The notes: generated from the letters alone by a model not told the origin. Shown: positions 5,549 through 61,892, counted from the first letter of the stretch. The stretch: DNA of 64,000 bases from a virus (IMGVR_UViG_3300044716_000883:62001-126000), one strand, 5' to 3'. Numbers and translations are program-made.

Positions 5549-5962
5549 ATGCCACTACCTCAAACAATACGTGTAAATCCGTTAGATTTACGTAAAAATA
5601 TTGCTATTGGGGTATCGCTACCTTTTAAAGGACCTTTTACAAGTACTTTTACTACTAAGGATCAAATTAAATCTAATTTAATCAATCTTTTACTTACTAA
5701 TAAAGGTGAAAGAATAATGAATCCTACTTTTGGATGTGATATAAAAAAACAATTATTTCAAAATATTACTACTGAATTACAACAAAAAATTATAGATATT
5801 ATTGTAGAAGCTGTTAGTATATTCATGCCTGAAATACAAGTTGGATTAATAGAAGTAGTTCCAAATACTGATTATAATCAAATAAATATAACAATATACT
5901 ATAAAATTATAATATCTAACACCCCAGGCCAAGTAACAATTCAATTTGAAACACTTAGATAA
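5549..5962 (+). CDS. gp25-like baseplate wedge protein
   Basis: This 137-residue protein belongs to the GPW/gp25 family that joins the sheath to the baseplate wedge. The family signature is visible: a beta-rich N-terminus, a helix ending in LINLLLTNKGERIMNPTFG (about residues 42-60), then a long helix and a C-terminal beta sheet. Length and position, directly before the gp6-like gene, match T4-like and contractile-tail operons. Confidence 0.88.
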   Translation: MPLPQTIRVNPLDLRKNIAIGVSLPFKGPFTSTFTTKDQIKSNLINLLLTNKGERIMNPTFGCDIKKQLFQNITTELQQKIIDIIVEAVSIFMPEIQVGLIEVVPNTDYNQINITIYYKIIISNTPGQVTIQFETLR

Positions 5963-5964
5963 AA

Positions 5965-7788
5965 ATGACAAACGAAGATAAAAATATATCATATTTAAAT
6001 AAAGATTTTGGTTCCTTTAAAGCAGAATTACAACAATACGCCAAAACTTATTTTCCAACAACTTATAATGACTTTACAGAAGCCACACCAGGTAATATGT
6101 TTATTGAAATGGCATCTTACGTTGGTGATGTTATGTCATTTTATTTAGATACTCAAGTACAAGAAAATTTCTTATTATACGCTAAAGAAAAAGAAAATTT
6201 ATATGCACAAGCATATGTAATGGGTTATCGCCCTAAAGCATCTTATGCTTCAAATACTACTGTTGATATATATCAATTGGTTCCTTCTATTACTAATGGT
6301 GGTGTTACAACTCCGGATTATGCTACTTATGGAATTATAGTCCCAACAAATACATCACTCACCTCAACAACAAACGGAACTAAATTTTTAACTACACAAC
6401 AAGTTGATTTTACAGACACTGGTAGTACTGAAATTACTTTTGTAGACTCTAACTATTATCTACTCAAAAAATCAGTTCCTGCTATATCAGCAGAAATAAA
6501 AGAAACTACAATTAATGTAGGTACAAATCAAAAATTTGCTACTACAACTATTACTGACGATAATATATTACAAATATTAAATGTTACTGGTAGTATGGGT
6601 AATCAGTGGTATGAAGTTCCTTATTTAGCACAATCATCTATTTTTCAACAAATAGCTAATCCATCATACAATACCGATCAGGTTCCCTATTTATTGCAAT
6701 TACAAAGAGCCCCTAGACGTTTTGTTTCTAGAATATTATCAGACAATACCTTACAATTAGAATTTGGAGCTGGTTTATCTATAAATAAAACTGATACTCA
6801 AATAATTCCAACTCCATCTAATATTCAAGCGGGTATTGTACCTGGTATTTCATTATTAACAAATAATTACAATGAAGCTGGTACTTTCTTTACTCAAGAA
6901 TATGGTTTAGTACCTAATGGTGATTTAATAGTAAAGTATTTAGTTGGTGGTGGTATTACATCAAATGTACCTGCTAATGATTTAACTACTATAGATACAA
7001 CAGGTGTAACATTTCCTGGTGGTGGTGGGGCTTTAAATGCTACTGTATTGCAAAGTATAGTATCATCAAATCCAAATCCATCTTCGGGTGGGAGAAATGG
7101 AGATACAGTTGATGAAATTAGACAAAACGCTTTATATGCTTATTCAACTCAATTAAGAGCTGTAACTAAAGATGATTATATAGTAAGAGCAATGTCAATG
7201 CCTGCTGATTATGGTACTGTAGCTAAAGCATATATTTCACAAGATTTAAATACAAATCCTCAAGAAACGGTAGCCTACACAAGTCCCTTTAATCCACTAG
7301 CTTTAGATCTATATATTTTATCATATAATAGTGATAAACAATTAACTACAGCAGTACCAACATTAAAACAAAATTTAGTAACTTATCTTAATCAATATAG
7401 AATGGTTACTGATGCTATTAATATTAAAGATGCATATTATATCAATATTGGACTTAACTTTGATATTATTATATTGAGTGGATATTCTAATAAAGATGTA
7501 ATAACTAATTGTATAACTACATTAAAAGACCATTTTAATACAGATAAATGGCAAATTAACCAACCAATTATCATTTCAGATATTACTTCTAAATTATTAC
7601 AAGTTAAAGGCGTTCAATCTGTAGTTAAGTTAGAAATAACAAACAAACAAGGAGGAAATTATTCTCAATACGGATATGATATTGCTGGGGCTACTAAAAG
7701 TGGAAATATTTACCCTTCATTAGATCCAGCTATATTTGAAATTAGATTCCCTGATGTTGATATACAAGGTAGAGTAGTAGTAAGTTAA
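5965..7788 (+). CDS. gp6-like (baseplate J family) wedge protein
   Basis: This 607-residue wedge protein would form the iris of the baseplate. The N-terminus carries the gp6/J hallmark: a short helix, then FTEATPGNMFIEMASYVGDV and an FYLDTQVQENFL helix (residues 37-70). The middle domain is beta-rich. Near residues 375-420, GRNGDTVDEIRQNALYAYST followed by RAVTKDDYIVRA is the conserved J-type core. It follows the gp25-like gene by 2 nt, the usual order. T4 gp6 is 660 residues. Confidence 0.88.
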   Translation: MTNEDKNISYLNKDFGSFKAELQQYAKTYFPTTYNDFTEATPGNMFIEMASYVGDVMSFYLDTQVQENFLLYAKEKENLYAQAYVMGYRPKASYASNTTVDIYQLVPSITNGGVTTPDYATYGIIVPTNTSLTSTTNGTKFLTTQQVDFTDTGSTEITFVDSNYYLLKKSVPAISAEIKETTINVGTNQKFATTTITDDNILQILNVTGSMGNQWYEVPYLAQSSIFQQIANPSYNTDQVPYLLQLQRAPRRFVSRILSDNTLQLEFGAGLSINKTDTQIIPTPSNIQAGIVPGISLLTNNYNEAGTFFTQEYGLVPNGDLIVKYLVGGGITSNVPANDLTTIDTTGVTFPGGGGALNATVLQSIVSSNPNPSSGGRNGDTVDEIRQNALYAYSTQLRAVTKDDYIVRAMSMPADYGTVAKAYISQDLNTNPQETVAYTSPFNPLALDLYILSYNSDKQLTTAVPTLKQNLVTYLNQYRMVTDAINIKDAYYINIGLNFDIIILSGYSNKDVITNCITTLKDHFNTDKWQINQPIIISDITSKLLQVKGVQSVVKLEITNKQGGNYSQYGYDIAGATKSGNIYPSLDPAIFEIRFPDVDIQGRVVVS

Positions 7789-14350: not shown

Positions 14351-15013
14351 ATGGCAATTTTAAATCCTACGACAGTAACTGTAGATGCAATATTAACCAC
14401 GAAGGGCCGCGAATTATTGGCTCGTAACGACGGTTCATTCCAAATTACTCAATTCGCATTAGCTGATGATGAGATTGATTATACTTTGTATAACCCAAAT
14501 CACCCATCAGGATCTGCGTTCTATGGTGAAGCAATTGAAAACACTCCTGTGTTAGAAGCTTTCCCTAACGAATCACAAATTATGCGTTACAAATTAGTAA
14601 CTTTACCTCGTGGTACATCTAAATTACCAGTTATTAACTTAGGTTATAACAGTATTATATTACGTCAAGGTGCTTCATTAACAATTACTCCACAAACCTT
14701 AAATTATTTAGGTTCTACAAGTACATTTGAAGCAAATGGTTACACAGCTACAATTGCTGATTCTCGTTTAGTATCTTCATTTACAGGTACAGGTATTACT
14801 TCAACAACACCACCTGCAGGATTAAACACAACTACAGGAACTGTATTATCAGTAACTCAAATTGGTACTTCATTCACGTTAACAGGTACAACAATTAATA
14901 CATTATTTGGTTCTACTTTAACTTCATTAGCTACTACAATCACTGTGATTGGTAGAGATAGTGGTGCAAGAGTTACTATTCCTCTTAATATTCAAAAAGT
15001 ATCATCAATCTAA
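14351..15013 (+). CDS. Tail or fibre structural protein
   Basis: This 220-residue protein starts MAILNPTTVTVDAILTTKGR, followed by LLARNDGSFQITQFALADDE, a compact N-terminal domain. The C-terminal half is Ser/Thr/Gly-rich beta sequence with two imperfect repeats (TGITSTTPPAG, GTSFTLTGTT). The gene context (wedge before, fibre-like proteins after) points to a virion component. No enzymatic motif is seen and the exact T4 counterpart is unclear. Confidence 0.6.
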   Translation: MAILNPTTVTVDAILTTKGRELLARNDGSFQITQFALADDEIDYTLYNPNHPSGSAFYGEAIENTPVLEAFPNESQIMRYKLVTLPRGTSKLPVINLGYNSIILRQGASLTITPQTLNYLGSTSTFEANGYTATIADSRLVSSFTGTGITSTTPPAGLNTTTGTVLSVTQIGTSFTLTGTTINTLFGSTLTSLATTITVIGRDSGARVTIPLNIQKVSSI

Positions 15014-15021
15014 TTTAACAT

Positions 15022-16023
15022 ATGTCATTTTCAAGATATAACACCGAAGATTCAGTAATCAGTTCAGAAACCGTAGTTAGAGGTTTATGGGGTGGAGATA
15101 ATAATTCTCTATCTACATTTTTTACCCAAAGTGGATACACTGAATATTATCTAGATGTATACAATGGAGATCCTTCAATATCAGGTTCTTCAGTACAGTT
15201 TTCAATTCAATATGGTAACCTAAATGGATCTGGATCTAATTTAATTAATCCTAATATCCCATTAGGTGGATATACTCCATCTCGTGTAGTATATGGTGAA
15301 TATAGAAATTTAGTTTACGGAACTGAAACCACAAACTTTAGCTTTGATAATGGTGCAACAACCGCAAATGATATATTTGTAATTAATGTTGCTCGTTCTC
15401 GTTATAAAGAATCTTTATTACCTAGTTCATTTAATTTAACCTTAGGAAGTGGTAGTAATACAGTTAGATTAACTGATGATAGCGGAACTACAAGTTTAAC
15501 TCGTTTTATTGGTGAAAATAAAGTATATTATGTTATTAGCGGAAGTAATGGTAATGCATATACCCCAGCTGCTTCATCTTCATATTACGGAATGGTATTT
15601 CCTGATTTAGATATTATTGTATTAAATGCTTCTGCATCATCAACAGTATCTTTAACTAATGTATTTGCTCCATTAGCTCAAACTACATCTTCAGCTAATT
15701 ATAATGCCATTAAATTATATAATTCGATTGTTAGTGGATCTTCAACATTCCCTTTTCAATTAAAATCATCTGAAACTGTTTCTTCAAGATATTTCTTTAC
15801 AAGAGTAAAAAATAGTGAGTTTAACTATACTTCAAATCCATCTATTATAGATGCAAATGGCAACTTATTATACACAACTTTAATTAACAATCCTCAAACA
15901 TACGTTACAACAGTAGGTATGTATAATGATAATAATGAGTTGTTAGCAGTAGCTAAATTAAGTAAACCATTAACTAAAGACTTTACTAAAGAAGCTCTAA
16001 TTAGAATCAAACTAGACTATTAA
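15022..16023 (+). CDS. Tail or fibre structural protein, paralogue of the gene at 19776
   Basis: This 333-residue, beta-rich, Ser/Gly/Tyr-rich protein is likely part of the tail. The last 90 residues (SEFNYTSNPSI, then TVGMYNDNNELLAVAKLSKP) are clearly related to the whole of the 102-residue protein encoded at 19776-20084 (SDYNLSYNPTL, TIGLYDDDNQLLAVAKLGKP). This shared domain probably attaches both proteins to the same virion site. The glycosyltransferase genes lie between the two copies. Confidence 0.65.
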   Translation: MSFSRYNTEDSVISSETVVRGLWGGDNNSLSTFFTQSGYTEYYLDVYNGDPSISGSSVQFSIQYGNLNGSGSNLINPNIPLGGYTPSRVVYGEYRNLVYGTETTNFSFDNGATTANDIFVINVARSRYKESLLPSSFNLTLGSGSNTVRLTDDSGTTSLTRFIGENKVYYVISGSNGNAYTPAASSSYYGMVFPDLDIIVLNASASSTVSLTNVFAPLAQTTSSANYNAIKLYNSIVSGSSTFPFQLKSSETVSSRYFFTRVKNSEFNYTSNPSIIDANGNLLYTTLINNPQTYVTTVGMYNDNNELLAVAKLSKPLTKDFTKEALIRIKLDY

Positions 16024-16026
16024 TGC

Positions 16027-17541
16027 ATGTCTTCATTCAAAAAGTTAAGCAAATCAGACGTTACAGTAGTACCTTACCATGCTAATAAGCAATGGATACT
16101 GGATTATTGCCCATACCCTACATCATCTGACTATTTAACTATTTATAAAGGCACAAACCTTACTGGGAGTTTTTCTTTAGATGACGATCCCGTTACTGAA
16201 AATCAATATGAAAGACTAGTCTATAATCAAATCAACCAGTTATTCTATCAAGATTATACTACTTCTTTAGATACTAGTTCGTTAATGCTTTCACTTAACA
16301 ACTACGAATCTGCATCGCAGCAAAGACCAACTTCATCTTATTTTGTATATAACGACAATAAGAATTTAATTACCCTCTTCCCTACAGGTACTATGGAAGG
16401 AATCCGTGTGTTAGCTGTTAATCAAGACATTTATGGTAATAAAGTATTACCAAACCACTTTATCTTATCTTCATCTGCATATTATGTAACTGATGATGGT
16501 TTTGGTAATTTATATGATACAAAATCTACAAAAAAGCATATTGGAAATATGTTTTATGCTCATGGAATAGGAATTATAACTGACCCAGATTATCAATTAA
16601 TGTTTCCTTTACCTCCATTAGCTAAAAATGATATTGCTTATTTTCTAAATACTGATTTTCCTAAAACTATCTCTCCATTAATTAATGACGATCCTAGAGG
16701 AGGAACATTAGTACCTAGTACTTTAACTTTATCTGGTAGTGCAGCTGATTTAGTATTTTGGACTAATAACGGTGATGGAACTGTTACTCTAAATTCATCA
16801 GTTGTCGGGACATATGTAATTTATTATACTGTGGAATCTAGTTATGATTGTGGTAATATTCCAAGTAATAAAGCTAAAATAGCAGTAAATGTAAGTATAA
16901 CATTAACACCAACCACAACAACTAGTACTTCTACATCTACATCAACAAGTACTTCGACGAGTACATCTACTTCAACATCGACATCAACAAGTACATCGAC
17001 ATCAACAAGTACATCTACTTCTACAAGTACTTCAACATCGACAAGTACTTCAACATCGACAAGTACTTCAACGAGTACTTCAACATCAACATCAACAAGT
17101 ACATCGACATCAACAAGTACTAGTACAACAACTAGTACAACAACTGCTCCTCCAATAATATTATCTATAGCTTATGTTGATGCAGCAGGAAATATAAGAT
17201 TAGAAGGAAATTCAGCAACTACTTTAACTGAAAATATTGAATTTCAAGTAATTAGAAGTGTTAGTCATGCTTATACATCACTAAATTGTGGAGCAGGGGA
17301 AATATCACAAAGTAATTTCTTTACAGCACAAACAACAACAATATTTTCTGGTAATACTACAGGACAAAGTGTTGATATATTCTCTACAGGAACTGTTCAA
17401 ACAACTAAAATAGATTCAGTAACAATACTTTGGTCAGATTCATCATCAACTGCCGTACCAAATAATAACACTACTGTCACATCACCAGTAACAGGAAAGA
17501 ATTATAAAATAACTAATATTGATACTTGTACTCCTATTTAA
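16027..17541 (+). CDS. Fibre-like protein with Ig-like domain and long Ser-Thr linker
   Basis: This 504-residue protein has three visible parts. Residues 1-205 are a mixed domain following the preceding tail gene. Residues about 206-290 are Ig/cadherin-like (PLINDDPRGGTLVPSTLTL, then VVGTYVIYYTVESSYDC). About 78 residues of almost pure alternating Ser-Thr follow. A C-terminal beta domain of about 130 residues carries Cys pairs. The Ser-Thr tract resembles mucin-type stalks that receive O-glycans. Two glycosyltransferase genes follow immediately, which makes glycosylation of this protein a testable idea. It is probably a tail fibre or decoration protein. Confidence 0.65.
   Translation: MSSFKKLSKSDVTVVPYHANKQWILDYCPYPTSSDYLTIYKGTNLTGSFSLDDDPVTENQYERLVYNQINQLFYQDYTTSLDTSSLMLSLNNYESASQQRPTSSYFVYNDNKNLITLFPTGTMEGIRVLAVNQDIYGNKVLPNHFILSSSAYYVTDDGFGNLYDTKSTKKHIGNMFYAHGIGIITDPDYQLMFPLPPLAKNDIAYFLNTDFPKTISPLINDDPRGGTLVPSTLTLSGSAADLVFWTNNGDGTVTLNSSVVGTYVIYYTVESSYDCGNIPSNKAKIAVNVSITLTPTTTTSTSTSTSTSTSTSTSTSTSTSTSTSTSTSTSTSTSTSTSTSTSTSTSTSTSTSTSTSTSTSTSTSTSTTTSTTTAPPIILSIAYVDAAGNIRLEGNSATTLTENIEFQVIRSVSHAYTSLNCGAGEISQSNFFTAQTTTIFSGNTTGQSVDIFSTGTVQTTKIDSVTILWSDSSSTAVPNNNTTVTSPVTGKNYKITNIDTCTPI
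16912..17147 (+). repeat. Ser-Thr dipeptide tract
   Basis: About 78 codons alternate Ser and Thr (roughly residues 296-373 of the protein). Codon choice varies widely (TCT, TCA, TCG, AGT with ACA, ACT, ACG). The protein pattern is therefore kept while the DNA is not a simple microsatellite, although short DNA units such as ACATCGACATCAACAAGT recur. It probably grows and shrinks by slippage under selection for a flexible linker. Confidence 0.9.
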
Positions 17542-17584
17542 TAAAAAATTTGGAGTCATAAATTAGGATAATTATATTATAGTT

Positions 17585-18526
17585 ATGAAAAATTTACGTT
17601 ATATTTGCGTTCAACCTCGTCTGATATATTATGCCTGGCAAGTAGAAGTTATGATTAATAACTTTATTAAAAATGGAATCAGTGGTAATAATATTGATAT
17701 TCTAGTTGCTTGGAACTCCAATGACGATACTAATACCCCAGAAGTAATAGAAGCTTGGAATAAATTAGCTAATACATACAATTATGTTAGATTCTTCTTC
17801 TATGAAGATACTAGAGAAGATATGAATTATATTCCTTCTATTTACTTTAATATATTAAAACAACACATTAAGGCCCACCCAGAACTAATAGACCAACCTC
17901 TATTTTTACACGATTCTGATATCTTATTTACAAAACCAGTTGATTTTAGCAGTATGCTAAATGATAAAATTTGGTATTTAAGTGATACTGTTGGTTATAT
18001 TGGAACTCAATATGTTTTAACAAAAGGTGAAGATGTTTATAAAGGAATGTGTAATATAATAGGAATTGATCCTTTAATACCTAAACTATTAAATTCAAAT
18101 TCTGGGGGTGCTCAACATATTGTTAAAGGTTCTACTTATGAATATTGGGATAAAGTAGAAAAAGATTCAATTAGATTATATAGATGGTTTTGTGAACAAG
18201 AACCTTTATGGAAGGGTGAAGGATATCCAATTCAAAAGTGGACTGCAGGTATGTGGTCACTATTATGGAATGCTTGGTTATTTGGTAATGAAACTAAAGT
18301 AGATAAAAGATTAGATTTTTGTTGGGCAACTGACCCTATTAATGGATGGAATAATGTATCAATATTCCATAATGCTGGTGTGACAGAACATGGTAAGTTA
18401 TTTATGAAGGGTAATTATATTAATTCATATCCATATGGCATAGAAAACACGTTTGATTCTAATTTTTGTTCATATAACTATGTTAATGAAATTATAGAAA
18501 CTTCTAAAAAAACATGTTTAATATGA
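17585..18526 (+). CDS. Glycosyltransferase, GT-A-like
   Basis: This 313-residue protein probably transfers a sugar from a nucleotide donor. The metal-binding DxD motif is seen as FLHDSDILF (Asp110, Asp112), after an alpha/beta N-terminal half typical of a GT-A fold. The C-terminal half holds many Trp residues (RLYRWFCEQEPLW, then WTAGMWSLLWNAWLFG) that could bind acceptor sugars, and a late SIFHNAGVTEH segment. No signal peptide or membrane segment is seen, so it acts in the cytoplasm. It overlaps the next glycosyltransferase gene by 4 nt (ATGA). Confidence 0.8.
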   Translation: MKNLRYICVQPRLIYYAWQVEVMINNFIKNGISGNNIDILVAWNSNDDTNTPEVIEAWNKLANTYNYVRFFFYEDTREDMNYIPSIYFNILKQHIKAHPELIDQPLFLHDSDILFTKPVDFSSMLNDKIWYLSDTVGYIGTQYVLTKGEDVYKGMCNIIGIDPLIPKLLNSNSGGAQHIVKGSTYEYWDKVEKDSIRLYRWFCEQEPLWKGEGYPIQKWTAGMWSLLWNAWLFGNETKVDKRLDFCWATDPINGWNNVSIFHNAGVTEHGKLFMKGNYINSYPYGIENTFDSNFCSYNYVNEIIETSKKTCLI

Positions 18527-19263
18527 TTTTACCAAAAATATCTTGTATATGTCCTACCTTTTCCAGGGCATATCTGTTGGAAGAAGCTCTTGAATCTTTC
18601 TTAAAACAAGATTACCAAGGAGAAAAAGAATTAATAATATATAATGATTTCTCCCAACAAGAATTTATATTTGAACACCCAGAAGTAAAAATAATTAACT
18701 CATTAGAAAGATCCCCTAATTTAGGACACAAATGGAATGTAACTTATAGTTATGCTACTGGAGAATATTTACTAACATGGGGGGATGATGATATTTACTT
18801 ACCAGGCAGAATAAGTAGAATGGTTAACAATTTAAATCAGTCTGATTTTTTATATGAAGGTCCATTTTATATACTCTACGGAGATGTTCTTTACAAAAAA
18901 CCAAATCAAACACAAGGAGCAAATATAGTTTCAAGAAAATTATTTGATGCAGTAGGAGGAGTACCAGAAAAAAATACAGGAGAAGATGCCGCTTTTAATA
19001 ATAGAATAGCAGAGTATTTAGGTAAACCCCTTGATGTTTGTAAAGATGAACCACAATTTCTATATAGGTGGTCATCACCAAGAAATCATATATCTCAATT
19101 TGGAGAAGATAAAGAAGGTGAAATCACCAGTTATCAAAGAATGTTAGAAGCAGCAAATATATACATTGAATCCGGTAAAGAGCCTAAAGGTACTTATCAT
19201 TTAAATCCTCATTGGAAATTAAATTGGGTAGAAGAGGTAAAAACTGCTACTTTAGAACCCTAA
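18523..19263 (+). CDS. Family 2 glycosyltransferase
   Basis: This 246-residue enzyme has a classic GT2 N-terminus (ISCICPTFSRAYLLEEALES), then ELIIYNDFS and a DDD metal site in LTWGDDDIYLPGR (Asp88-90). GEDAAFNNRI (an ED motif) lies downstream. I start it at 18523, in the ATGA overlap with the previous stop, rather than at 18514. Together with the preceding transferase and the following hexapeptide protein, it forms a three-gene sugar-modification cassette placed between tail-fibre genes. Possible targets are the virion's Ser-Thr stalk or host surface glycans. Confidence 0.85.
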   Translation: MILPKISCICPTFSRAYLLEEALESFLKQDYQGEKELIIYNDFSQQEFIFEHPEVKIINSLERSPNLGHKWNVTYSYATGEYLLTWGDDDIYLPGRISRMVNNLNQSDFLYEGPFYILYGDVLYKKPNQTQGANIVSRKLFDAVGGVPEKNTGEDAAFNNRIAEYLGKPLDVCKDEPQFLYRWSSPRNHISQFGEDKEGEITSYQRMLEAANIYIESGKEPKGTYHLNPHWKLNWVEEVKTATLEP

Positions 19264-19272
19264 CTAAAAAAT

Positions 19273-19755
19273 ATGAACTACATTCACCCTACAGCTCTGG
19301 TTGAATCTAATGTAATAATTGAAGAAGATGTTTATATTGGACCTTATTGTATAATCGGATTTCCACCTGAATGGAAAAAAAGAGAAGACGAAGGTAAGGG
19401 TGTATTGATTAAAAAAGGAACTAGATTAACTGGATTTGTAACAGTAGATGCAGGTGCAGAAAGAAGAACTGAAATAGGTGAAAATTGCTATATAATGAAA
19501 TATGGTTATGTTGCTCATGATTGTATACTAGGAAATAATGTAACAATGAGTGCTGGCTCAAAATTAGCAGGCTTCTGCTATATTTCTGAAAATGTAAATC
19601 TAGGAATGGGAGTTGCTATCCATCAAAAATCAACAATACCCCCAGGAGTGATGATAGGAATGAATGGAGTAGTAACTAAACAAAGTAAATTATTACCTAA
19701 TCAAAAATATGTGGGTATACCTGTTAAACATATAGGAAGTAATGAAAGACATTAA
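19273..19755 (+). CDS. Hexapeptide-repeat (LpxA-like) transferase
   Basis: This 160-residue protein is built almost entirely of left-handed beta-helix hexapeptides ([LIV]-G-x4), from IHPTALVESNVIIEEDVYIG to ISENVNLGMGVAIHQKS. It ends in the usual PPGVMIGMNGVVTK and YVGIPVKHIG. Related proteins acetylate or acylate amino sugars. The likely catalytic His is in KYGYVAHDC. It presumably completes a modified sugar used by the two adjacent glycosyltransferases. The exact substrate cannot be read from sequence. Confidence 0.8.
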   Translation: MNYIHPTALVESNVIIEEDVYIGPYCIIGFPPEWKKREDEGKGVLIKKGTRLTGFVTVDAGAERRTEIGENCYIMKYGYVAHDCILGNNVTMSAGSKLAGFCYISENVNLGMGVAIHQKSTIPPGVMIGMNGVVTKQSKLLPNQKYVGIPVKHIGSNERH

Positions 19756-19775: not shown

Positions 19776-20084
19776 ATGCCAGTAACACACACAGGACCAT
19801 TCACCATACTATTTAAAAATGAACATACCATCTACGAAAATGAAATTCGTTGTTTGGTAAAGGAAAGTGATTACAACTTATCATACAACCCAACATTAGT
19901 GTCAGGTAGCTATGAAAGTGGATCCTTAAAGAATTTTGCTACTGCTTCTACTTTCTATACTTACGCTACAACAATAGGTTTGTATGATGATGACAATCAA
20001 CTATTAGCTGTTGCTAAATTGGGTAAACCAATTATGATGTCACCTGATACAGATATGACGTTCGTAGTTAAGTATGATGAATAA
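19776..20084 (+). CDS. Small tail protein, paralogue of the C-terminus of the gene at 15022
   Basis: This 102-residue protein has EIRCLVKESDYNLSYNPTL followed by TIGLYDDDNQLLAVAKLGKP. It is a stand-alone copy of the C-terminal domain of the 333-residue protein upstream. It is likely a small virion protein sharing the same attachment site. Its separation from the other tail genes by the sugar cassette suggests that the cassette was inserted into a once continuous tail operon. Confidence 0.7.
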   Translation: MPVTHTGPFTILFKNEHTIYENEIRCLVKESDYNLSYNPTLVSGSYESGSLKNFATASTFYTYATTIGLYDDDNQLLAVAKLGKPIMMSPDTDMTFVVKYDE

Positions 20085-22370: not shown

Positions 22371-22402
22371 GAGCGGGGATATTGTCTCCGCTCTTTTTTT
22401 TT
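22371..22402 (+). terminator. Strong terminator or leader hairpin before the receptor gene
   Basis: The arms 22371-22379 and 22385-22393 pair over 9 bp with one G-T wobble and a TATTG loop, then nine T residues. Only 18 nt of A-rich sequence separate it from the receptor ATG, which leaves no room for a promoter. The hairpin must either end the replication transcript or sit in the receptor mRNA leader as an attenuator. Confidence 0.85.
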
Positions 22403-22420
22403 AACCAAAACAAAACACAA

Positions 22421-25400
22421 ATGAAAAAAGCGATTTTATCGTTACTTCTTTCTGCACTATTTTTAGTGGGATTTGGTCAGGTTACCACATCCTCTATCTC
22501 TGGTGTTGTTAAGAATGAAAAGCAAGAAGTACTAGCAGGTACCGTTGTAGAAGCAATTCACGTTCCTACAGGTACAAAGTACAAGACCGTTGCAAACAAG
22601 AATGGTGTTTATGTGTTACCTGCTGTTAGAGTAGGTGGTCCATATGTAATCCATGCTTCGTTTGTAGGATTTAAAAAGAGTGAAGAAACAGATGTAAACG
22701 CTCAATTGGGTGTTACTACAAACGTTGACTTTGCTTTAGTGGATGAGAAATCAACTCTTAAAGAAGTAGTTGTGACTGGAACAAAATCTGTTTTATTTTC
22801 TAAAGAAAAAACAGGTGCTGCTCAACAATTTGGAAGAAGAGAATTAACTACTATTCCAATTACAGGTGCTAGAACAATTGATGGTATTACCAAGTACAAC
22901 CCATTTGGTAATGGTAACTCATTTGGCGCACAAGACTCTCGTTTGAACAACTTCACAATCGATGGTTCTCAATTTAACAACAACTTCGGTTTAGGTTCTT
23001 CAGCAGCAGCAGGTGGCCGTACAGGCGCTTCAGCAATTTCACTTGACGCGATTGATCAATTACAAGTTAACGTAGCACCATTTGACATTCGTCAATCTGG
23101 ATTTACAGGTGCTGGTATTAACGCTGTAACAAGATCAGGTACAAATGAAATTGAAGGATCCGTTTATCAAACACAACGTGATAATTCATCTCGTTATGTA
23201 GGTGATAACGCTAGAGGAACAAAAGTAACTGCATCTAAATTTGATGAAAAAGTACAAGGTTTTAGATTAGGTTTACCTGTTATTAAAAACAAATTATTTT
23301 TGTTTGGTAACTATGAAGGTATTACAAGAACTGAACCTGGTACAACTTGGATTTCAGCAGGATCACCACTTACAGGTACTCAAGTATCTCGTGTGAAATA
23401 TTCTGACATGGATGCTTTATCTAAATTCATGAAAGAAAAATTTGATTATACAACTGGTCCTTGGGAAGGTTACTCAAATCAGAATTCATCAAATAAATTT
23501 TTGATTCGTGCTGACTGGAATATTAACGACAAAAATAAATTAACTGCTCGTTATGTTCACCATAATTCATCTGCTGAAATTAACGTTTCAAACTCTCAAT
23601 CAGCAGGTGCTGGTAATAGAACAACTCAATTCAATGCTATGAGTTTCCAAAATAGTGGTTACATTATTATGGATAACACTCGTTCAGCAGTATTAGAATT
23701 GAACTCTAAAATCTCTAACACTTTACACAATAGTTTAATCGTTTCTTACGATAAGCAAATTGAAGATAGAGCTTATATGAGTAACATATTCCCAACTATT
23801 GATATCAGAGACGGTTCAGCAACTTACACTTCTGTAGGTTTCGATCCATTTACTCCAGATAACAAATTAGATTATTGGACACTTAATGTTACTAACAACT
23901 TAACTAAGTATTTAGGTAAACATACAGTAGTTGGTGGTTTTAACTTCCAACAATACCAATCTAATAACTTATTCTTCCCAGCATCTAATGGTGTTTATAT
24001 CTTCAATAGTTTGAATGACTTCTACACTGCCGCTAACCAATCATTAGCTAATGGTGGTCGTCCATCAACATTTGCTCCTGCTCGTTTCCAATTTAGATAC
24101 TCAGCATTACCTAGTGGAGCTGCACCAATGCAAACTTTAGAATCTTATAGAACCGATTTATATTTACAAGATGAATATAACGTAAATAAGAATTTAAAGT
24201 TAACTGCTGGTATTAGAGCAAATATTATTTCAATTAACAACACAGCATTAGAAAATAAAGCAGTAACTGCTATGACTTTTGCTAATGGTGAAAAATGGAA
24301 TACAGGTGTAATGCCTGAAACACAGTTATTATTCGAACCTCGTTTCGGATTTAACTGGGATGTAAAAGGTGAAAAGAAAACACAAGTTAGAGGTGGTACT
24401 GGTATTTTTACTGGTCGTCCTCCTTATGTATTCTTATCTAACCAAATTGGTAATACAGGTGTATTATCAGGATTTATTGATGTATCAGGTGCAGCAGCTG
24501 CTAATTATGGCTTTACTGCTAACCCAAATCAATACTTTATTCCTTCAACACCAACTTTACCATCTACATTTGATTTAGCTTTAACAGATGCTAATTATAA
24601 GTTTCCTCAAGTTTGGAAAAATAACTTAGCTGTTGATCAAAAATTACCTTGGTTAGGTTTAATTGCTAGTGTTGAATTATTATACAATAGAACTTTAAAT
24701 GCAGTTCATTATTACAACGCTAACTTAGATGCTCCTGTTGGTAAATTAGGTGGTGTTGATCAAAGACCACTTTATGCAGGTAATGATAACGGTGTTCGTG
24801 TAAACGATAACGTTTCAATGGCTGCAGTATTAACTAATAGAAATGGTGCCTTTAACAAATCAGCAACATTTAAATTAGAAAAACCAGCATCTAAAGGTAT
24901 TTGGGGTTATGTAGCTTATACAGCTGCAGACGCACAAGACTTTATGGACGCAGGTTCAATTGCTAGTGGTTCTTGGCAATCAGCATTATCAGTTAATGGT
25001 AATAATGATTTAGGTTTAACAACTTCATCATTTGTAGTTAGAAATCGTATCGTAGGTTTATTAGGATACCGTTTAGACTATGGTAAGAAATATGGTGGTG
25101 CTACTACATTCACATTAGGATATGTAGGTTCACAAAACAATCCATTCTCTTATATCGTAGCAGGTGACTTAAATGGTGACAGAGTAAATAATAATGATTT
25201 AGTATTTGTACCAAATAAAGCATCAGACATTCGTTTTGCATCTTTAACAGTAGGTACAACAGTTTATACTGAAGCTCAACAACAAGAAGCTTTTGATAAA
25301 TTCATTGATCAAGATCCTTACTTATCAACTCGCAGAGGTCAATATGCTGAAAGAAATGCAATTGCATTACCTTTCCTACATAGATTTGACTTATCAGTTG

Positions 25401-25693
25401 CTCAAGATTTCTTTGTAAAGATTAAAGGTAAGCGCAATGCTTTCCAAATTAGAGCTGATATCTTGAACTTTGGTAATATGTTAAATAATAATTGGGGTGT
25501 ATCTCAACGTGCAGGTGCTCCACAATTGTTGAACTTTGTAAGCCGCGACGCTGCAGGTGTTCCAACATACAGATTATCAACACAGAGAGATGCTACAAGT
25601 ACTTTCTTAGCAAGAGACACATATCAATTCAACTCATCAGTATTTGATGTATGGACTGCTCAATTAGGTATTCGTTACACTTTCGGTAAGTAA
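22421..25693 (+). CDS. TonB-dependent outer-membrane receptor of Bacteroidota type
   Basis: This 1090-residue, apparently intact receptor belongs in the host outer membrane. It has a signal peptide (residues 1-19, MKKAILSLLLSALFLVGFG). A carboxypeptidase-regulatory-like beta sandwich follows (about 24-105, ISGVVKNEKQEVLAGT). Then come a TonB-box-like LKEVVVTGT (113-121), a plug with NNFTIDGSQFNNNFG and VTRSGTNEIEGS, and a long beta-barrel ending in AQLGIRYTFGK. The layout fits Oar- or SusC-like receptors. The start is the ATG after the A-rich leader. It may serve nutrient uptake, superinfection exclusion or receptor swapping during infection. A metagenomic chimera should be excluded, although the gene has phage sequence on both sides. 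Confidence 0.9.
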   Translation: MKKAILSLLLSALFLVGFGQVTTSSISGVVKNEKQEVLAGTVVEAIHVPTGTKYKTVANKNGVYVLPAVRVGGPYVIHASFVGFKKSEETDVNAQLGVTTNVDFALVDEKSTLKEVVVTGTKSVLFSKEKTGAAQQFGRRELTTIPITGARTIDGITKYNPFGNGNSFGAQDSRLNNFTIDGSQFNNNFGLGSSAAAGGRTGASAISLDAIDQLQVNVAPFDIRQSGFTGAGINAVTRSGTNEIEGSVYQTQRDNSSRYVGDNARGTKVTASKFDEKVQGFRLGLPVIKNKLFLFGNYEGITRTEPGTTWISAGSPLTGTQVSRVKYSDMDALSKFMKEKFDYTTGPWEGYSNQNSSNKFLIRADWNINDKNKLTARYVHHNSSAEINVSNSQSAGAGNRTTQFNAMSFQNSGYIIMDNTRSAVLELNSKISNTLHNSLIVSYDKQIEDRAYMSNIFPTIDIRDGSATYTSVGFDPFTPDNKLDYWTLNVTNNLTKYLGKHTVVGGFNFQQYQSNNLFFPASNGVYIFNSLNDFYTAANQSLANGGRPSTFAPARFQFRYSALPSGAAPMQTLESYRTDLYLQDEYNVNKNLKLTAGIRANIISINNTALENKAVTAMTFANGEKWNTGVMPETQLLFEPRFGFNWDVKGEKKTQVRGGTGIFTGRPPYVFLSNQIGNTGVLSGFIDVSGAAAANYGFTANPNQYFIPSTPTLPSTFDLALTDANYKFPQVWKNNLAVDQKLPWLGLIASVELLYNRTLNAVHYYNANLDAPVGKLGGVDQRPLYAGNDNGVRVNDNVSMAAVLTNRNGAFNKSATFKLEKPASKGIWGYVAYTAADAQDFMDAGSIASGSWQSALSVNGNNDLGLTTSSFVVRNRIVGLLGYRLDYGKKYGGATTFTLGYVGSQNNPFSYIVAGDLNGDRVNNNDLVFVPNKASDIRFASLTVGTTVYTEAQQQEAFDKFIDQDPYLSTRRGQYAERNAIALPFLHRFDLSVAQDFFVKIKGKRNAFQIRADILNFGNMLNNNWGVSQRAGAPQLLNFVSRDAAGVPTYRLSTQRDATSTFLARDTYQFNSSVFDVWTAQLGIRYTFGK

Positions 25694-54782: not shown

Positions 54783-57700
54783 ATGGCAGTAAACATTAAA
54801 TTAAAACGCAGTGCCGTTCCTGGCAACGTTCCTGACACCTCTCAGTTAGAGTTAGGTGAAATAGCTCTTAATACCCACGACGGTAAAGCTTTCTTTAAAC
54901 AAGACGTTAATGGACTACAATCCATTGTAGAATTAGCTTCTTTTACTAGTGGCTCATCAGTCGCTTCAGCATCTTACGCTGCTTACGCTGATTATGCTGC
55001 TAATGCGGGGACCGCCAATACTGCTTCTTATGTTAATAACGCCATATCTTCTTCATTTGCCACAACAGCATCGTATGCTCCTGGATCAGATACAGCCACA
55101 AGTGCTTCTTATGCTGCAACAGCATCATCTGCTAACAATTTTTTAGTAAGAGGTACATTAACTGCTCAAACTATTGTTGCTCAATACATTACCTCTTCAA
55201 CAAGTTTTATTACAGGTTCTACTAAGTTTGGATCAATAATTTCAAATACTCATGAATTTACGGGTAGCATTAGTGTTAGTGGATCATTAGGAATAAATGG
55301 GATTGATTACGGAACAACATCAGCCTCTTTTGATACTCGTATTAATAATAATAGTTCAAGTATAGCAATACTTAGTGCTTCTCTTTTAGGAGAAACCGCA
55401 GCTATTTTTACTATTCTTTCTGGTCAAAGTAGTAGCATAAGTTCTTTAAGTTCTTCATTTTTAGCTTTTAGCAGTTCATATAATACAGGATCATTTAGTG
55501 GTTCCTTTAGTGGTTCCTTGTTTGGAAGTGCTAGTTGGGCTCTAGATGCTGTTGATACTATAAATGCTCCTAGATATACTTTAACATCTTCATTTCAAAA
55601 CTTTACACAATCTTATTATAGTGACAGTGCTTCTGTTAGTACAAGAGTAACAAATTTAGAACAATTTAGCTCTAGCTTAGATGCAACATTCGCAACGGAT
55701 GCTCAATTAAACGATGCTACTGCTTCATTAAGTGGATCTATATCATATCTAAGCGCTAGTTTCTTAATTGATAGTGCCTCATTCAATACTCGTATTAATA
55801 ATAACAGTTCAAGCATTGATTTATTAAGTGGAAGCTATTTGGCTTCAAGTTCATCGTTTGACACTCGCATTATCAATAATAGTTCAAGCATTGGTTTGTT
55901 GAGCGGTAGTTACTTAGCATCCTCCTCTTCATTTGACACTCGCATTATCAACAATAGCTCAAGTATTGCTTTATTAAGTGGTAGTTATTTAGCTGATTCT
56001 TCGTCATTTGATACCCGTATCTTAAACAATAGTTCAAGCATCGGTTTACTAAGCGGAAGTTACTTAGCTTCAAGTGCATCGTTTGACACTCGTATTATTA
56101 ATAACAGTTCTAGCATCGGTTTATTGAGTGGTAGCTATTTGGCTTCAAGTGCATCATTTGACACTCGTATTATTAATAATAGTTCAAGCATTGCTTTATT
56201 AAGTGGCTCTTACTTATCAGATAGTGCCTCTTTCAACACTCGTATTAACAATAATAGCTCTAGTATTGGGTTGTTAAGCGGTAGCTATTTAGCTTCAAGT
56301 GCTTCATTCGATACAAGAATACTTAACAACAGCAGCTCCATTGGATCTCTATCAGGCAGTTTCTTAAGTGTTAGTTCTTCTAACTCAACTAGAATATCTA
56401 ATCTAGAACAATTTAGCTCATCATTAGATACAATATTTGCTACTGATGCTGATTTAAATGCCTTAAGTTCTAGTTTCAATACATTCTCTAGCTCAATTAA
56501 TAGTTGGACTGGTTCTTCAACTTCACAATTTGGAGGTACAGCATCTTATTCTAACACTTCTATAAGTGCTTCTTATGCTGCAACAGCATCCTCAGCAGAT
56601 AACTTTTTAGTAAGAGGAACTCTTACAGCACAAACAATTATAGCCCAATATATTACTTCATCAGTTGAATTTGTAACTGGATCTACACATTTTGGAACAA
56701 CAATTGATAACACACATCAATTTACAGGTAGTGTTAGTATTAGTGGTTCATTAGGAATAAATGGTATTGACTATGCTTCAACATCAGCTTCATTTGATAC
56801 AAGAATATTAAACAATAGTAGTTCTATTGGTTTACTAAGCGGAAGCTACTTGGCTTCTTCTTCATCATTCGATACTCGTATTATCAATAATAGTAGCAGT
56901 ATCGGTCTTTTAAGTGGTAGTTATTTGGCTAGTTCTGCGTCATTTGACACTAGAATTTTAAATAACAGCTCTAGCATTGGTTTGCTAAGCGGCAGTTACT
57001 TAGCTTCAAGCGCATCCTTTGACACTCGTATCTTGAACAATAGTTCAAGTATTGGTTTGCTAAGCGGCAGTTACTTAGCTGATAGTGCTTCATTCGATAC
57101 AAGAATACTTAATAATAGTTCAAGTATAGGGTCTCTATCAGGTAGTTTCTTAAGCGTTAGTTCTTCTAACTCAATAAGAATAACAGACTTAGAAGCATTT
57201 AGTTCATCATTAGATGCAACGTATGCAACTGATGCTCAATTAAATGCAGCTACTGCTTCATTAAGTAGCTCAATAGCAATATTATCTTCTTCATATACTT
57301 CTTTTAGCAGTTCATTCTCTACAGGTTCCTTTACTGGTTCTTTCAATGGAGATTTTACAGGATCATTAAATAATCTACAAGGTACAGCTAGACATATTCC
57401 ATTCTTTAGTTCATCTCAAGTATTGGATGATAGTTCAATATATCAAGTTGGTAATGAAAGTGTTGCTATTAATCAAAATGCTGTTACGTCAGCAGCTCCT
57501 GAAGCATTATATGTTTGGCAACCAAATACATCTTCATTCAATGTAATTAGTGGTAAAGGTAATCTAGATAACTACCTACAATTAAACATCCAGAATACCA
57601 ATCAAGGATCTACAGCATCATCTGACATTGTAGCTACAGCAAATAACGGTAACGAATTTAGTAACTACATTAATATGGGTATCAACAGTGAAAACTTTAG

Positions 57701-60700
57701 TGGTTTTCTTGGTGGGCCTAATGATGCTTATTTATTTTCTACTGGTAGTGAGTTTCATATTGGTAATATCACCCCAGGTAAACACTTAGGTTTCTTTGTA
57801 GGTGGTGGAGATGTAGATACAGGTAATAAATTTGCTTTATATCCTACAAACCAACACCAAATGACTGGTTCATTAGATGTAAGTGGTAGTGTAAAAGCAT
57901 TTTCATTTACTGGTTCTTTATTTGGAACTGCTAGTTGGGCTAATAATGCTATAACAGCATCTTATGCTTTAAATGCTATAAGTGCTTCATTTGCATCAAG
58001 TGGTTTAGGAGTATTTAGTGGATCATTTAGTGGATCATTCTTCGGTAATGGAGGTGGTTTAACAAATATACCTGCTTCAAGCGTTGTAGGATTAAATTTA
58101 TCTCAAATTTCTTCTGGTAGTGTAACTGCTTCTGTAGACCCAGCTTATGGATTTAAAGTAAACAGCAACACAACTATTTCAGGTTCAACCCAAATAACTG
58201 GATCTTTAGGTGTAACAGGATCTGTTAGTATAGCAGGAACAGGTACAGTATTATCCGCTAATGTAGATACAATCGTATTTACAGGTTCATTTGCTCAATC
58301 AGGATCAGTAACAGTAAACGGTAATATTACTTCTACTGGTACTATTACAGCTCAAACATTAAATGTTCAAACTATAACATCATCTGTTAGTTTTATAACA
58401 GGATCATCTAAGTTTGGATCAATAATTTCAAATACACATCAATTTACGGGTAGTATTTTAGTGAGTGGATCTTTAGCTGTTAATGATTCTAACGTTATTT
58501 TAACTAACCAGACATCATCAATGTCTGTGCTAAGTGCTTCATTTGCATCAACCGCATCATATGTTACTTTAGCTCAAACTGCATCATATATTACTTTAGC
58601 TCAAACATCATCTTATGTAACATTAGCTCAAACAGCTTCATACGTAGCAAATGCTCAAACTGCATCTTATGTATTAAATGCTGTAAGTGCTTCATATGCA
58701 TCAAATGCAGATTTACTAGATGGTAAAGACAGTACTATATTTGCAACTACAGGTTCAAATACATTTATAGGCACTCAAATAGTAACTGGAAGTTTATTTA
58801 CTAGTGGATCAAATTCATTAGTAGGAAACACTATATTAGATGGTACTATTGGAATTAACGGAAACTCAACTTTAACAGGTTCATTCCTAGTATCAGGTTC
58901 TACTACTCAAATAGGAAATAATACCCTAATAGGTAATACCTCATTAACAGGCTCATTTAAAATATCAGGTAGCGAGACTGTTACAGGATATATTCAATTT
59001 GAACCTGTAACAACAAACATTGATACATCAATATCTGCTTCATATATTTTTGTAAGTGGATCTACAAAGGACTTATATTTTAGCCAAAATAGTGCTGGAT
59101 ATAGTAATGTAACTCGTTTACGTTGGTTAGAAGGTAATTTATATACTGGTCTATTAAATGGTGGTTTAATTACTACTCAATCTTCTACTGTTTATCAAAT
59201 TGGTAGTGGTAGTGGTATTATTGTAGATTTAAACGCATCATTAAATGATAATCCATACCCAACAATCCAATACTTAAGTTGGGGAAATCTATCAGCTAGT
59301 ATTGCTCCTTTAACAGCATCATATCAACAAGCATTTGTTGGTATTGATTCATCAAACAACATTTACGCTCAAGGAATACCTTTTAGTAATGGTCAGTTTG
59401 ATACTATAATAAACATTGGTAACGTATTATTCCAAAACCAATCTACAATTAATGGTGTTAAAACTCAACCTTCTGTAGCTTATGGTTTTGAACAACAACA
59501 AAATGTATTTAATAGAGCATTCGGACCATTAAAATTATCAGGATATACTTTAGCACCTAGTGGATCTAGTACACGCGGTTTATTAGTAGGAAGTGGTACA
59601 GCTTATTCTCCAGGATCTAACTACGTTATAGATCCAAATGAACCTTATTACACAACTGATTCTGGTACTAGTGTATCAAAAATATTTAGATATTACCAAT
59701 CAGGATCTAGTTGGGTTTATTTAACAAACGCAGGTGCTGGATATACAGCAATTGATCCAACTCAATATTCTAATAATGGTACTTTATCAGGTGTAGCTAA
59801 TGGTGAATGGTCAATCCAACGTGTATTTTGGTTCCCTAACTCCGTTACAAAAGCTATAGTAGTTTATTATGGTAATACAGTATTTGCAACTGAAGCAGAA
59901 GCTATTGCTAATATCAACATAGAATCATTTGTTGAAGCACCTAATACCGCAGCTAACGCTATATATTTAGGTAGTATTGTAATTAAAGGAAATGGTGTGT
60001 TTACTGCACCTACCGAATTTACAATAGTACCTGGAGGCTTATTTAGACAAGTAGGAGGAACTGGTGGTGGTGGTTCGGTAATCACACAAACTCTATCAGG
60101 TTTATCTGATGTATTAATATCAGGCCCTACAAGTGGTCAAGCTTTAGTGTATGATTCTACAGCGGCTAAATGGGAAAATAAATCATTTATTAGTGCTTCT
60201 ATCTCAGGAAATGCTGCAACCGCAACAACTGCATCATACGCAGCAAACGTTCCTGAAACAGCATCTTATGCACTATCTGCCAACTCAGCTTCATACGCTA
60301 TAACGGCTTCATATGTTAGTCCTTACACCGAGATACTTTCAGCATCGTTTGCAACAACAGCGTCATATGTTAGTCCTTATACGACGATAATTTCATCTTC
60401 GTTTGCAACAACAGCATCATTTGCTTCAACTGTTAATTACGATAACCTTATAAGATCAGCTTCATTTGCTGAAACCGCTTCATACGTTAGTCCGTATACA
60501 ACAATAATTTCATCGTCATTCGCAACTACCGCCTCATACGTTAGTCCGTATACAGAAATATTTTCAGCATCGTTTGCAACAACAGCATCATATGCTTCAA
60601 CTGTTAACTATGACAATCTTATAAGATCGGCTTCGTTTGCTGAAACAGCGTCATATGTTAGTCCTTATACAATAATACTATCATCTTCGTTTGCTGAAAC

Positions 60701-61892
60701 AGCGTCATATGTTAGTCCTTACACAGAAATAATATCGTCATCATTTGCTACTACAGCATCATATGCTTCAAATATCAATTATGATAATCTTATAAGATCG
60801 GCTTCATTTGCTGAAACAGCTTCATTTGCCTCAACATCTTCATATTCAAATAATATAGTAGGCGCTGCAAATTACATTCCTAAATTTACTGGAGGTAATA
60901 CTTTAAGTAGCAGTATAATGTATGAAAATGCTAGTGGTATTGGTATTAATAATATTTCTCCATCCCATAAATTACAAGTAAGTGGAGATGCTGCTGTAGC
61001 CAACACCAACAGTACTTTAAATACAACTAAATATGCTTTATTATCTGGACTTCAATTAACATCCACGGGTACAGAATCAAACCAATATGCTAATGTTGGT
61101 GTGTATGGAGCATTAGGATTTTCAGCAACATCATCAACTTTTACTCCATCAGATAAATCGTTTACAAGTGCAGTCTTAGGTCAATTTGGTAAAAGTGGAA
61201 ATGGAAATATTTCTGGTAAAGTATCTTCATTTGCTTCTGCATTTGATCTTGCAGGTGGTGGTAACGTAACAACAATGGCTGGATTTAGAGCTTATGCTCC
61301 TCTTCAATCATTTGCTTTACCATCATTTACAGGTACTATAACAAACTACATTGGTTTATTAGTAGATGATATTACAGGAACTACGGATGTAGATTCTCAA
61401 ATCACTAACAAATATGGTATTTTCCAATCAGGATCTCTTGATAAAAACTACTTTGCAGGTTCAACAACATTCGCAGGTGGTGTTACCGGATCTTTACTTG
61501 GAACTGCAACCACTGCTTCATACGCAGCAACTGCATCATTTTCACAAAACCTAACAGTAGGAAGTTCATTAACTATTGATCAAACATTAACTGATTATGC
61601 TACAGTAGCATCATCAACTGTTGGATCAAATAACCTATTTACTCAAACTGTTGGTTCTTATACATCAGCATTCTTTAAATACACCGTATCAAATGGTGGT
61701 AACACAAGAGCTGGTGAAGTAATAGCAGCTTGGAATGGTACTACAGCAGAATTTACAGATTTCTCAACAGTAGATATAGGTAATACTACAGCAGTAACTG
61801 CTTCAATATCAATAGTATCAGGACAAGTACAATTCAACGTTCAAACTAACAGTTCAGGATGGAGAATTAAATCATTAGCAACATTCATGTAA
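54783..61892 (+). CDS. Giant repeat tail fibre (2369 residues)
   Basis: This long adhesin-type fibre starts with a phage-fibre head domain (IKLKRSAVPGNVPDTSQLEL, then GEIALNTHDGKAFFKQDV). A Ser/Gly/Ala-rich shaft follows with two blocks of 25-residue repeats (8 and 5 units). Two copies of a larger module (NFLVRGTLTAQTI, QYITSS, FTGS) appear, each leading into a repeat block. Later come a globular-looking domain (about 905-1035), ASFATTASYVSPYT repeats and a terminal domain (GINNISPSHKLQVSGD, ending SSGWRIKSLATFM). There is no S74 chaperone at the end. It probably makes the long host-binding fibre. Confidence 0.88.
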   Translation: MAVNIKLKRSAVPGNVPDTSQLELGEIALNTHDGKAFFKQDVNGLQSIVELASFTSGSSVASASYAAYADYAANAGTANTASYVNNAISSSFATTASYAPGSDTATSASYAATASSANNFLVRGTLTAQTIVAQYITSSTSFITGSTKFGSIISNTHEFTGSISVSGSLGINGIDYGTTSASFDTRINNNSSSIAILSASLLGETAAIFTILSGQSSSISSLSSSFLAFSSSYNTGSFSGSFSGSLFGSASWALDAVDTINAPRYTLTSSFQNFTQSYYSDSASVSTRVTNLEQFSSSLDATFATDAQLNDATASLSGSISYLSASFLIDSASFNTRINNNSSSIDLLSGSYLASSSSFDTRIINNSSSIGLLSGSYLASSSSFDTRIINNSSSIALLSGSYLADSSSFDTRILNNSSSIGLLSGSYLASSASFDTRIINNSSSIGLLSGSYLASSASFDTRIINNSSSIALLSGSYLSDSASFNTRINNNSSSIGLLSGSYLASSASFDTRILNNSSSIGSLSGSFLSVSSSNSTRISNLEQFSSSLDTIFATDADLNALSSSFNTFSSSINSWTGSSTSQFGGTASYSNTSISASYAATASSADNFLVRGTLTAQTIIAQYITSSVEFVTGSTHFGTTIDNTHQFTGSVSISGSLGINGIDYASTSASFDTRILNNSSSIGLLSGSYLASSSSFDTRIINNSSSIGLLSGSYLASSASFDTRILNNSSSIGLLSGSYLASSASFDTRILNNSSSIGLLSGSYLADSASFDTRILNNSSSIGSLSGSFLSVSSSNSIRITDLEAFSSSLDATYATDAQLNAATASLSSSIAILSSSYTSFSSSFSTGSFTGSFNGDFTGSLNNLQGTARHIPFFSSSQVLDDSSIYQVGNESVAINQNAVTSAAPEALYVWQPNTSSFNVISGKGNLDNYLQLNIQNTNQGSTASSDIVATANNGNEFSNYINMGINSENFSGFLGGPNDAYLFSTGSEFHIGNITPGKHLGFFVGGGDVDTGNKFALYPTNQHQMTGSLDVSGSVKAFSFTGSLFGTASWANNAITASYALNAISASFASSGLGVFSGSFSGSFFGNGGGLTNIPASSVVGLNLSQISSGSVTASVDPAYGFKVNSNTTISGSTQITGSLGVTGSVSIAGTGTVLSANVDTIVFTGSFAQSGSVTVNGNITSTGTITAQTLNVQTITSSVSFITGSSKFGSIISNTHQFTGSILVSGSLAVNDSNVILTNQTSSMSVLSASFASTASYVTLAQTASYITLAQTSSYVTLAQTASYVANAQTASYVLNAVSASYASNADLLDGKDSTIFATTGSNTFIGTQIVTGSLFTSGSNSLVGNTILDGTIGINGNSTLTGSFLVSGSTTQIGNNTLIGNTSLTGSFKISGSETVTGYIQFEPVTTNIDTSISASYIFVSGSTKDLYFSQNSAGYSNVTRLRWLEGNLYTGLLNGGLITTQSSTVYQIGSGSGIIVDLNASLNDNPYPTIQYLSWGNLSASIAPLTASYQQAFVGIDSSNNIYAQGIPFSNGQFDTIINIGNVLFQNQSTINGVKTQPSVAYGFEQQQNVFNRAFGPLKLSGYTLAPSGSSTRGLLVGSGTAYSPGSNYVIDPNEPYYTTDSGTSVSKIFRYYQSGSSWVYLTNAGAGYTAIDPTQYSNNGTLSGVANGEWSIQRVFWFPNSVTKAIVVYYGNTVFATEAEAIANINIESFVEAPNTAANAIYLGSIVIKGNGVFTAPTEFTIVPGGLFRQVGGTGGGGSVITQTLSGLSDVLISGPTSGQALVYDSTAAKWENKSFISASISGNAATATTASYAANVPETASYALSANSASYAITASYVSPYTEILSASFATTASYVSPYTTIISSSFATTASFASTVNYDNLIRSASFAETASYVSPYTTIISSSFATTASYVSPYTEIFSASFATTASYASTVNYDNLIRSASFAETASYVSPYTIILSSSFAETASYVSPYTEIISSSFATTASYASNINYDNLIRSASFAETASFASTSSYSNNIVGAANYIPKFTGGNTLSSSIMYENASGIGINNISPSHKLQVSGDAAVANTNSTLNTTKYALLSGLQLTSTGTESNQYANVGVYGALGFSATSSTFTPSDKSFTSAVLGQFGKSGNGNISGKVSSFASAFDLAGGGNVTTMAGFRAYAPLQSFALPSFTGTITNYIGLLVDDITGTTDVDSQITNKYGIFQSGSLDKNYFAGSTTFAGGVTGSLLGTATTASYAATASFSQNLTVGSSLTIDQTLTDYATVASSTVGSNNLFTQTVGSYTSAFFKYTVSNGGNTRAGEVIAAWNGTTAEFTDFSTVDIGNTTAVTASISIVSGQVQFNVQTNSSGWRIKSLATFM
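55779..56378 (+). repeat. First fibre repeat block: eight 75-bp units
   Basis: Eight tandem 25-residue units follow the pattern SF[DN]TRI-xNNSSSIxLLSGSYLAxSx. Positions F, TRI, NNSSSI and LSGS(Y/F)L are fixed. The DNA copies differ by many synonymous changes, so the repeats are maintained at the protein level. Confidence 0.92.
56790..57164 (+). repeat. Second fibre repeat block: five 75-bp units
   Basis: Five units of the same 25-residue pattern follow a second copy of the NFLVRGTLTAQTI module. Both blocks end in the variant unit GSLSGSFLSVSS. Confidence 0.92.

Follow-up and report, generated by a model that had tools for sequence, protein, structure and literature searches.

Serine-rich repeat proteins of streptococci are O-glycosylated, and the enzymes that act on PsrP include GlyE, which is of the GT8 type. 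The acceptor in that system is a cell-surface adhesin exported by accessory Sec, and its glycosylation is primed by GtfA/GtfB rather than by a GT8 enzyme. Among phages, virion glycosylation has been described in the mycobacteriophages Che8, Corndog and Myrna (Freeman et al. 2023, as cited in PMC12363180 and PMC12619734), and these two papers report that mycobacteriophage-encoded glycosyltransferases modify capsid and tail-tube proteins at their C-termini, with antibody shielding as a reported effect.

The locus described here lies in a window of 64,000 nucleotides, the whole stretch of DNA that was analysed (G000:C1:62001-126000 of a 179-kb virus record), and comprises a stalk protein with a long Ser/Thr tract, three enzyme genes and their neighbours in a tail gene module:

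5549..5962, + strand: baseplate wedge subunit (phrog_261, E 8.8e-23), which indicates that the cassette belongs among the tail genes
5965..7788, + strand: baseplate wedge subunit (phrog_10646, E 4.9e-17)
14351..15013, + strand: conserved tail-module neighbour protein, kept in relatives
15022..16023, + strand: conserved tail-module neighbour protein, kept in relatives
16027..17541, + strand: stalk protein, 504 aa, with an N-terminal domain (1-193), an Ig/cadherin-like domain (194-292), the tract (296-373) and a C-terminal domain
16606..16902, + strand: Ig/cadherin-like domain of the stalk protein (model pLDDT about 80-92; fold search)
16912..17145, + strand: Ser/Thr tract of 78 residues, candidate O-glycan acceptor (from translation; predicted disordered, pLDDT 35-44)
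17585..18526, + strand: PHROG 4417 GT-A enzyme, 313 aa, candidate priming protein O-glycosyltransferase (PHROG profile E 2.5e-67; structure model)
18514..19263, + strand: GT2 glycosyltransferase, candidate extending enzyme (Pfam E 1.4e-12), replaced in relatives
19273..19755, + strand: LpxA-like left-handed beta-helix acyltransferase, candidate for sugar acylation (hexapeptide Pfam E 2.2e-19; PDB LpxA-type E 3.7e-43)
19776..20084, + strand: small conserved neighbour at the end of the variable cassette; in L086 it forms a fusion with the N-terminal domain of the stalk

This arrangement resembles the streptococcal system in that dedicated cytoplasmic glycosyltransferases are encoded beside a Ser-rich acceptor and in the fold match to GlyE, but the streptococcal acceptor is an exported adhesin and not a virion protein. 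The differences from Che8 concern both enzymes and acceptors. Che8 gp108 is a fusion of a GT2 and a methyltransferase, a type that also follows the PHROG 4417 gene in L005, and gp110 is a GT25-type enzyme with no detectable similarity to PHROG 4417; the Che8 capsid and tail proteins lack a Thr tract, and the Che8 glycosyltransferases are encoded far from the structural genes, whereas PHROG 4417 is tightly paired with the tract gene. The different enzyme family, the dedicated Thr/Ser acceptor tract, the tight gene pairing and the wide range of phages make this a case distinct from mycobacteriophage virion glycosylation. Our literature search returned nothing relevant on poly-Thr tracts with phage glycosyltransferases or on the function of 'prophage pi2 protein 34', and no paper that ties PHROG 4417 or poly-Thr tracts to virion glycosylation.

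The baseplate wedge genes upstream identify the region as a tail module, within which the variable cassette is the stretch between the stalk gene and 19776; relatives conserve the N-terminal domain of the stalk and the genes at 14351, 15022 and 19776. An earlier note on this DNA had described a fibre-like protein with about 78 alternating Ser and Thr residues, followed directly by GT-A-like, GT2 and LpxA-like genes. Both the tract and the gene order hold: stalk residues 296-373 are 78 consecutive Ser/Thr residues (35 S and 43 T), strictly alternating over 68 of them, and the three downstream ORFs lie on the same strand with profile or fold matches, the hexapeptide protein retaining the AHD segment of LpxA-type acyltransferases. 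The description as fibre-like stands in part. Residues 194-292 are modelled as an Ig/cadherin-like sandwich (best Z 9.7, 91 aligned, 2.2 A) followed by the tract, which is disordered in the model, but the stalk protein had no match in a Pfam search and matched no fibre family. As the model of the whole stalk is poor (pLDDT 55.9), we restrict the fold interpretation to residues 194-292; by sequence comparison, the N-terminal part is kept in 20 relatives. No nearly identical DNA was found among cultured phages.

Eight different Ser/Thr codons encode the tract, with TCN and AGT serines both present, and codons six apart in the alternating 68-residue core show 53 nucleotide differences, every one of them synonymous, whereas random substitutions would be synonymous in about 29% of cases, a comparison that yields no exact P since the repeat copies are not independent. 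A simple DNA microsatellite or chance DNA repeat alone is ruled out by the eight codons and the all-synonymous differences. Judged from the DNA, the synonymous-only differences between copies show the tract to be under constraint at the protein level. Its tandem repeats have periods of 18 and 36, and the tract probably grew by duplication with its protein sequence kept.

The enzyme encoded directly after the stalk belongs to PHROG 4417, a family annotated as 'unknown function', with residues 5-306 aligned to positions 2-291 of the 293-position profile. Its AlphaFold (AF2) model (pLDDT 94.7, pTM 0.92) has a GT-A fold, and the closest solved folds are glycogenin (the best match, Z 15.6, 226 aligned, 3.2 A), LgtC, UGGT, GlyE (Z 13.8, 216 aligned, 3.5 A) and LARGE1, a group with several protein-glycosylating members. 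D110-x-D112, Q217, H262-x-x-G265 and K275 are invariant in all 53 sequences of a set that covers metagenomic phages as well as phages infecting Gram-positive bacteria. This is what a GT8-like, metal-dependent enzyme would be expected to show, the DxD and the C-terminal His-x-x-Gly...Lys being assigned by sequence position and not by superposed coordinates. The common GT-A fold and these two motifs are shared with GT8/GT24 enzymes (glycogenin, LgtC, UGGT), but identity is only about 7-10%; a Pfam search with the enzyme gave no match, nor did a PHROG 4417 profile search of PDB sequences, solved GT8 enzymes included. As sequence searches recovered no GT8 relative, we call the enzyme GT8-like in fold rather than a member of CAZy GT8. 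One PHROG 4417 enzyme (L097:2-1117) carries a C-terminal extension that matches a phage methyltransferase family.

The pairing of tract and enzyme extends well beyond the window. Around the enzyme at 80 IMG/VR loci, a Thr-rich tract of at least 10 residues occurred in 58/78 genes immediately upstream, in 21/74 at the second position and 16/68 at the third, and in none of the 495 genes at positions +1 to +8 downstream. When the enzymes were clustered at 80% identity (35 clusters, 33 with a visible upstream gene), 23 of the 33 had a tract in the adjacent upstream gene and 27 had one within three genes upstream. The reverse search, in which loci were picked by a poly-Thr DNA pattern without reference to the enzyme, returned PHROG 4417 as the commonest downstream neighbour family (10/66 tract genes) and never as the immediate upstream neighbour (0/60; Fisher 0.0015 versus downstream). 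The remaining 56 of these 66 tract genes had no PHROG 4417 gene next door, which indicates that such tracts serve other purposes or are paired with different enzymes. About a quarter of enzyme loci lack a tract in the adjacent upstream gene; at L021, L035, L036, L038 and L039 the enzyme lies beside a short, tract-less stalk homologue. A Thr run was present elsewhere in 2 of 10 records whose adjacent upstream gene is tract-less, and the remaining records may be fragments.

Cultured phages display the same association. A tblastn search with the enzyme recovered 74 cultured-phage records, almost all of them Bacillota phages, and a Thr-rich tail was found near the enzyme in 15/15 enzyme-bearing phages examined (in 13 of them with a run of 6 or more Thr/Ser residues), a hand-picked set in which related genera recur. 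Their hosts are Enterococcus, Lactobacillus, Lactococcus, Staphylococcus, Arcanobacterium and Chryseobacterium. The tail is carried by the major tail protein in phiFL1A, 1706, bIL285, nattely, PMBT8, TPWB06, R3.3, R9.1 and RQ1, by a capsid protein in iLp84, R3.3, R9.1 and 4995_1 (in R3.3 and R9.1 the role is judged from position), and by a small Ig-like or other virion-type protein in Semele, iLp84, MA9V-3, 521B and LP65. In LP65, orf51, two genes upstream of the enzyme, ends in a Thr/Gln-rich tail, and its annotation records a structural protein detected by mass spectrometry. None of eight homologous major tail proteins that lack an enzyme gene within the surrounding 3.5 kb had a tract (0/8; Fisher 9e-5). 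Absence of the enzyme from the rest of these genomes is judged from the 60 records listed among the 74 matches, and two of the eight, from Lactobacillus phages Bassarid and phiJL-1, may have it elsewhere in the genome. On bacterial genome contigs, 10 of 11 PHROG 4417 relatives had no nearby tract, so the link between tract and enzyme is a rule of phage loci rather than of the family at large; at four Bacteroidota loci of this kind (L224, L226, L228 and L229, from Chitinophaga, Spirosoma and Chitinophagaceae), a PHROG 4417-like domain is fused to a GT7-type domain, again with no nearby Thr tract.

Relatives at the same locus separate the conserved pair from its accessory genes. L083 and L084, whose stalks are 78% and 60% identical to that of the window, keep both the tract and PHROG 4417 and differ in accessory enzymes, L083 encoding a GT6 and one further protein and L084 a GT2 and one further protein. 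L085 has a Pro-rich stalk of PTPS repeats and no PHROG 4417 gene, and L086 has neither tract nor enzyme. The GT2 and hexapeptide genes of the window are exchanged in relatives for other glycan-tailoring genes, types that often follow PHROG 4417 and include an acyltransferase: 16 of 86 genes at the first two downstream positions encode methyltransferases and 13 encode GT2 enzymes, with GT6, GT7, GT11, Fringe-like and FkbM proteins also present. Outside the window, the same phage carries a 13-kb glycan island (G000:C1:15620-28876, L253) with two GT4-like and two GT2-type enzymes, a DegT aminotransferase, two epimerase/dehydratases, an LpxA-like acyltransferase and a methyltransferase. With sugar dehydratase/epimerases and a DegT aminotransferase among its genes, the phage may itself make an unusual amino sugar. 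Elsewhere in this genome (L252:101-2246; G000:C1:4100-6245), a second Thr-tract protein (TTTSTTTTTTTT) is encoded two genes after an enzyme of GT25 type, a Pfam family to which Che8 gp110 also belongs.

The earlier note had read the neighbourhood as glycosylation by the phage of its own virion and had proposed co-occurrence of tract and cassette as a check. The association between the tract and the first glycosyltransferase is present in IMG/VR loci, in the tract-first sample and in cultured phages from other phyla, and supports that reading; the pairing of PHROG 4417 with threonine tracts across many unrelated phages suggests that the particles are probably sugar-coated by the phage. We therefore consider it likely that the virus particle receives O-glycans from the phage itself, by action of the PHROG 4417 enzyme on the Thr/Ser tract of the neighbouring virion protein. 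We propose that this enzyme would attach a nucleotide-activated sugar to Thr and Ser hydroxyls of the tract in the cytoplasm of the infected cell, and that the general role of PHROG 4417 is most likely to start O-glycosylation at the Thr/Ser tracts of virion proteins. The GT2 enzyme would probably then add a second sugar and the LpxA-like enzyme would probably acylate a sugar, either in the glycan or in the donor, though both could act on the donor sugar rather than on the attached glycan. What the data establish is the gene order, the tract, a GT-A fold with an invariant metal-binding motif and, in three data sets, the association of tract and enzyme; we infer catalysis on the tract, the order of these steps, the presence of the stalk protein in the virion and the identity of the sugar. 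Our guess at the purpose is a hydrated glycan brush that guards the tail or head against proteases, antibodies, receptor decoys and sticking, or else one that binds host surface sugars.

Three other explanations deserve weighing. The tract could be a flexible spacer lengthened by repeat slippage, with the enzyme directed at another part of the virion protein such as the Ig-like domain, an explanation to which the repeat periods of the tract DNA and the short tract-less stalk homologues at enzyme loci such as L021 and L036 lend some support. We judge it unlikely: tract presence follows the enzyme among homologous tail proteins, the repeat copies differ only synonymously, and the relative without the enzyme has a PTPS spacer in place of the tract. 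Alternatively, the enzymes might modify the host surface (LPS or capsule) in the manner of seroconverting phages, with adjacency to tail genes arising by chance, as would fit the resemblance of the GT-A fold to the LPS enzyme LgtC and the relatives without tracts in bacterial genomes. This is quite unlikely given that the enzyme trails tract-bearing virion genes in unrelated phages, some of which infect Gram-positive hosts that lack LPS, that homologous tail proteins without the enzyme carry no tract, and that a GtrA-type flippase (PF04138) was not found in the record, possibly a fragment. Glycosylation of phage DNA is very improbable: phage glycosyltransferases that hypermodify DNA exist (literature cited in PMC12619734), but the immediate neighbours here are tail genes, the association with Thr tracts would go unexplained, and a thymidylate synthase/hydroxymethylase (PF00303) was not found in the record, which is perhaps incomplete, other routes to such modification also existing.

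Glycosylation of the virion by its own phage, primed by PHROG 4417, would have consequences beyond this locus. It seems fairly likely that PHROG 4417 is a widespread, previously unrecognised family of phage protein O-glycosyltransferases and part of a transferable module for glycan coats on virions, in which portable Thr/Ser acceptor tails on tail-tube, capsid and Ig-like proteins are combined with exchangeable glycan-tailoring genes in phages of Bacteroidota, Bacillota and Actinomycetota. A function and a substrate can thereby be proposed for an unannotated phage protein family, one carried by growable phages such as Lactococcus phages 1706 and bIL285 and Lactobacillus phage iLp84. Virion glycosylation, reported for a few mycobacteriophages in the literature searched, may be common, and a Thr tail with one enzyme may serve as a portable tag with which proteins can be given a sugar coat in bacteria.

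Two further genes in the window merit mention. A full-length TonB-dependent-receptor/Oar-like outer membrane protein (22382-25693; CarboxypepD_reg and OMP_b-brl_4) is encoded among the phage genes and also in the close relatives L002, L082 and L084; in the phage collection a relative occurs in only one record, itself without annotation, and the protein is possibly a receptor decoy or superinfection factor. Further downstream, 54783-61892 encodes a protein of 2369 aa with long internal repeats of 75, 150 and 171 bp.
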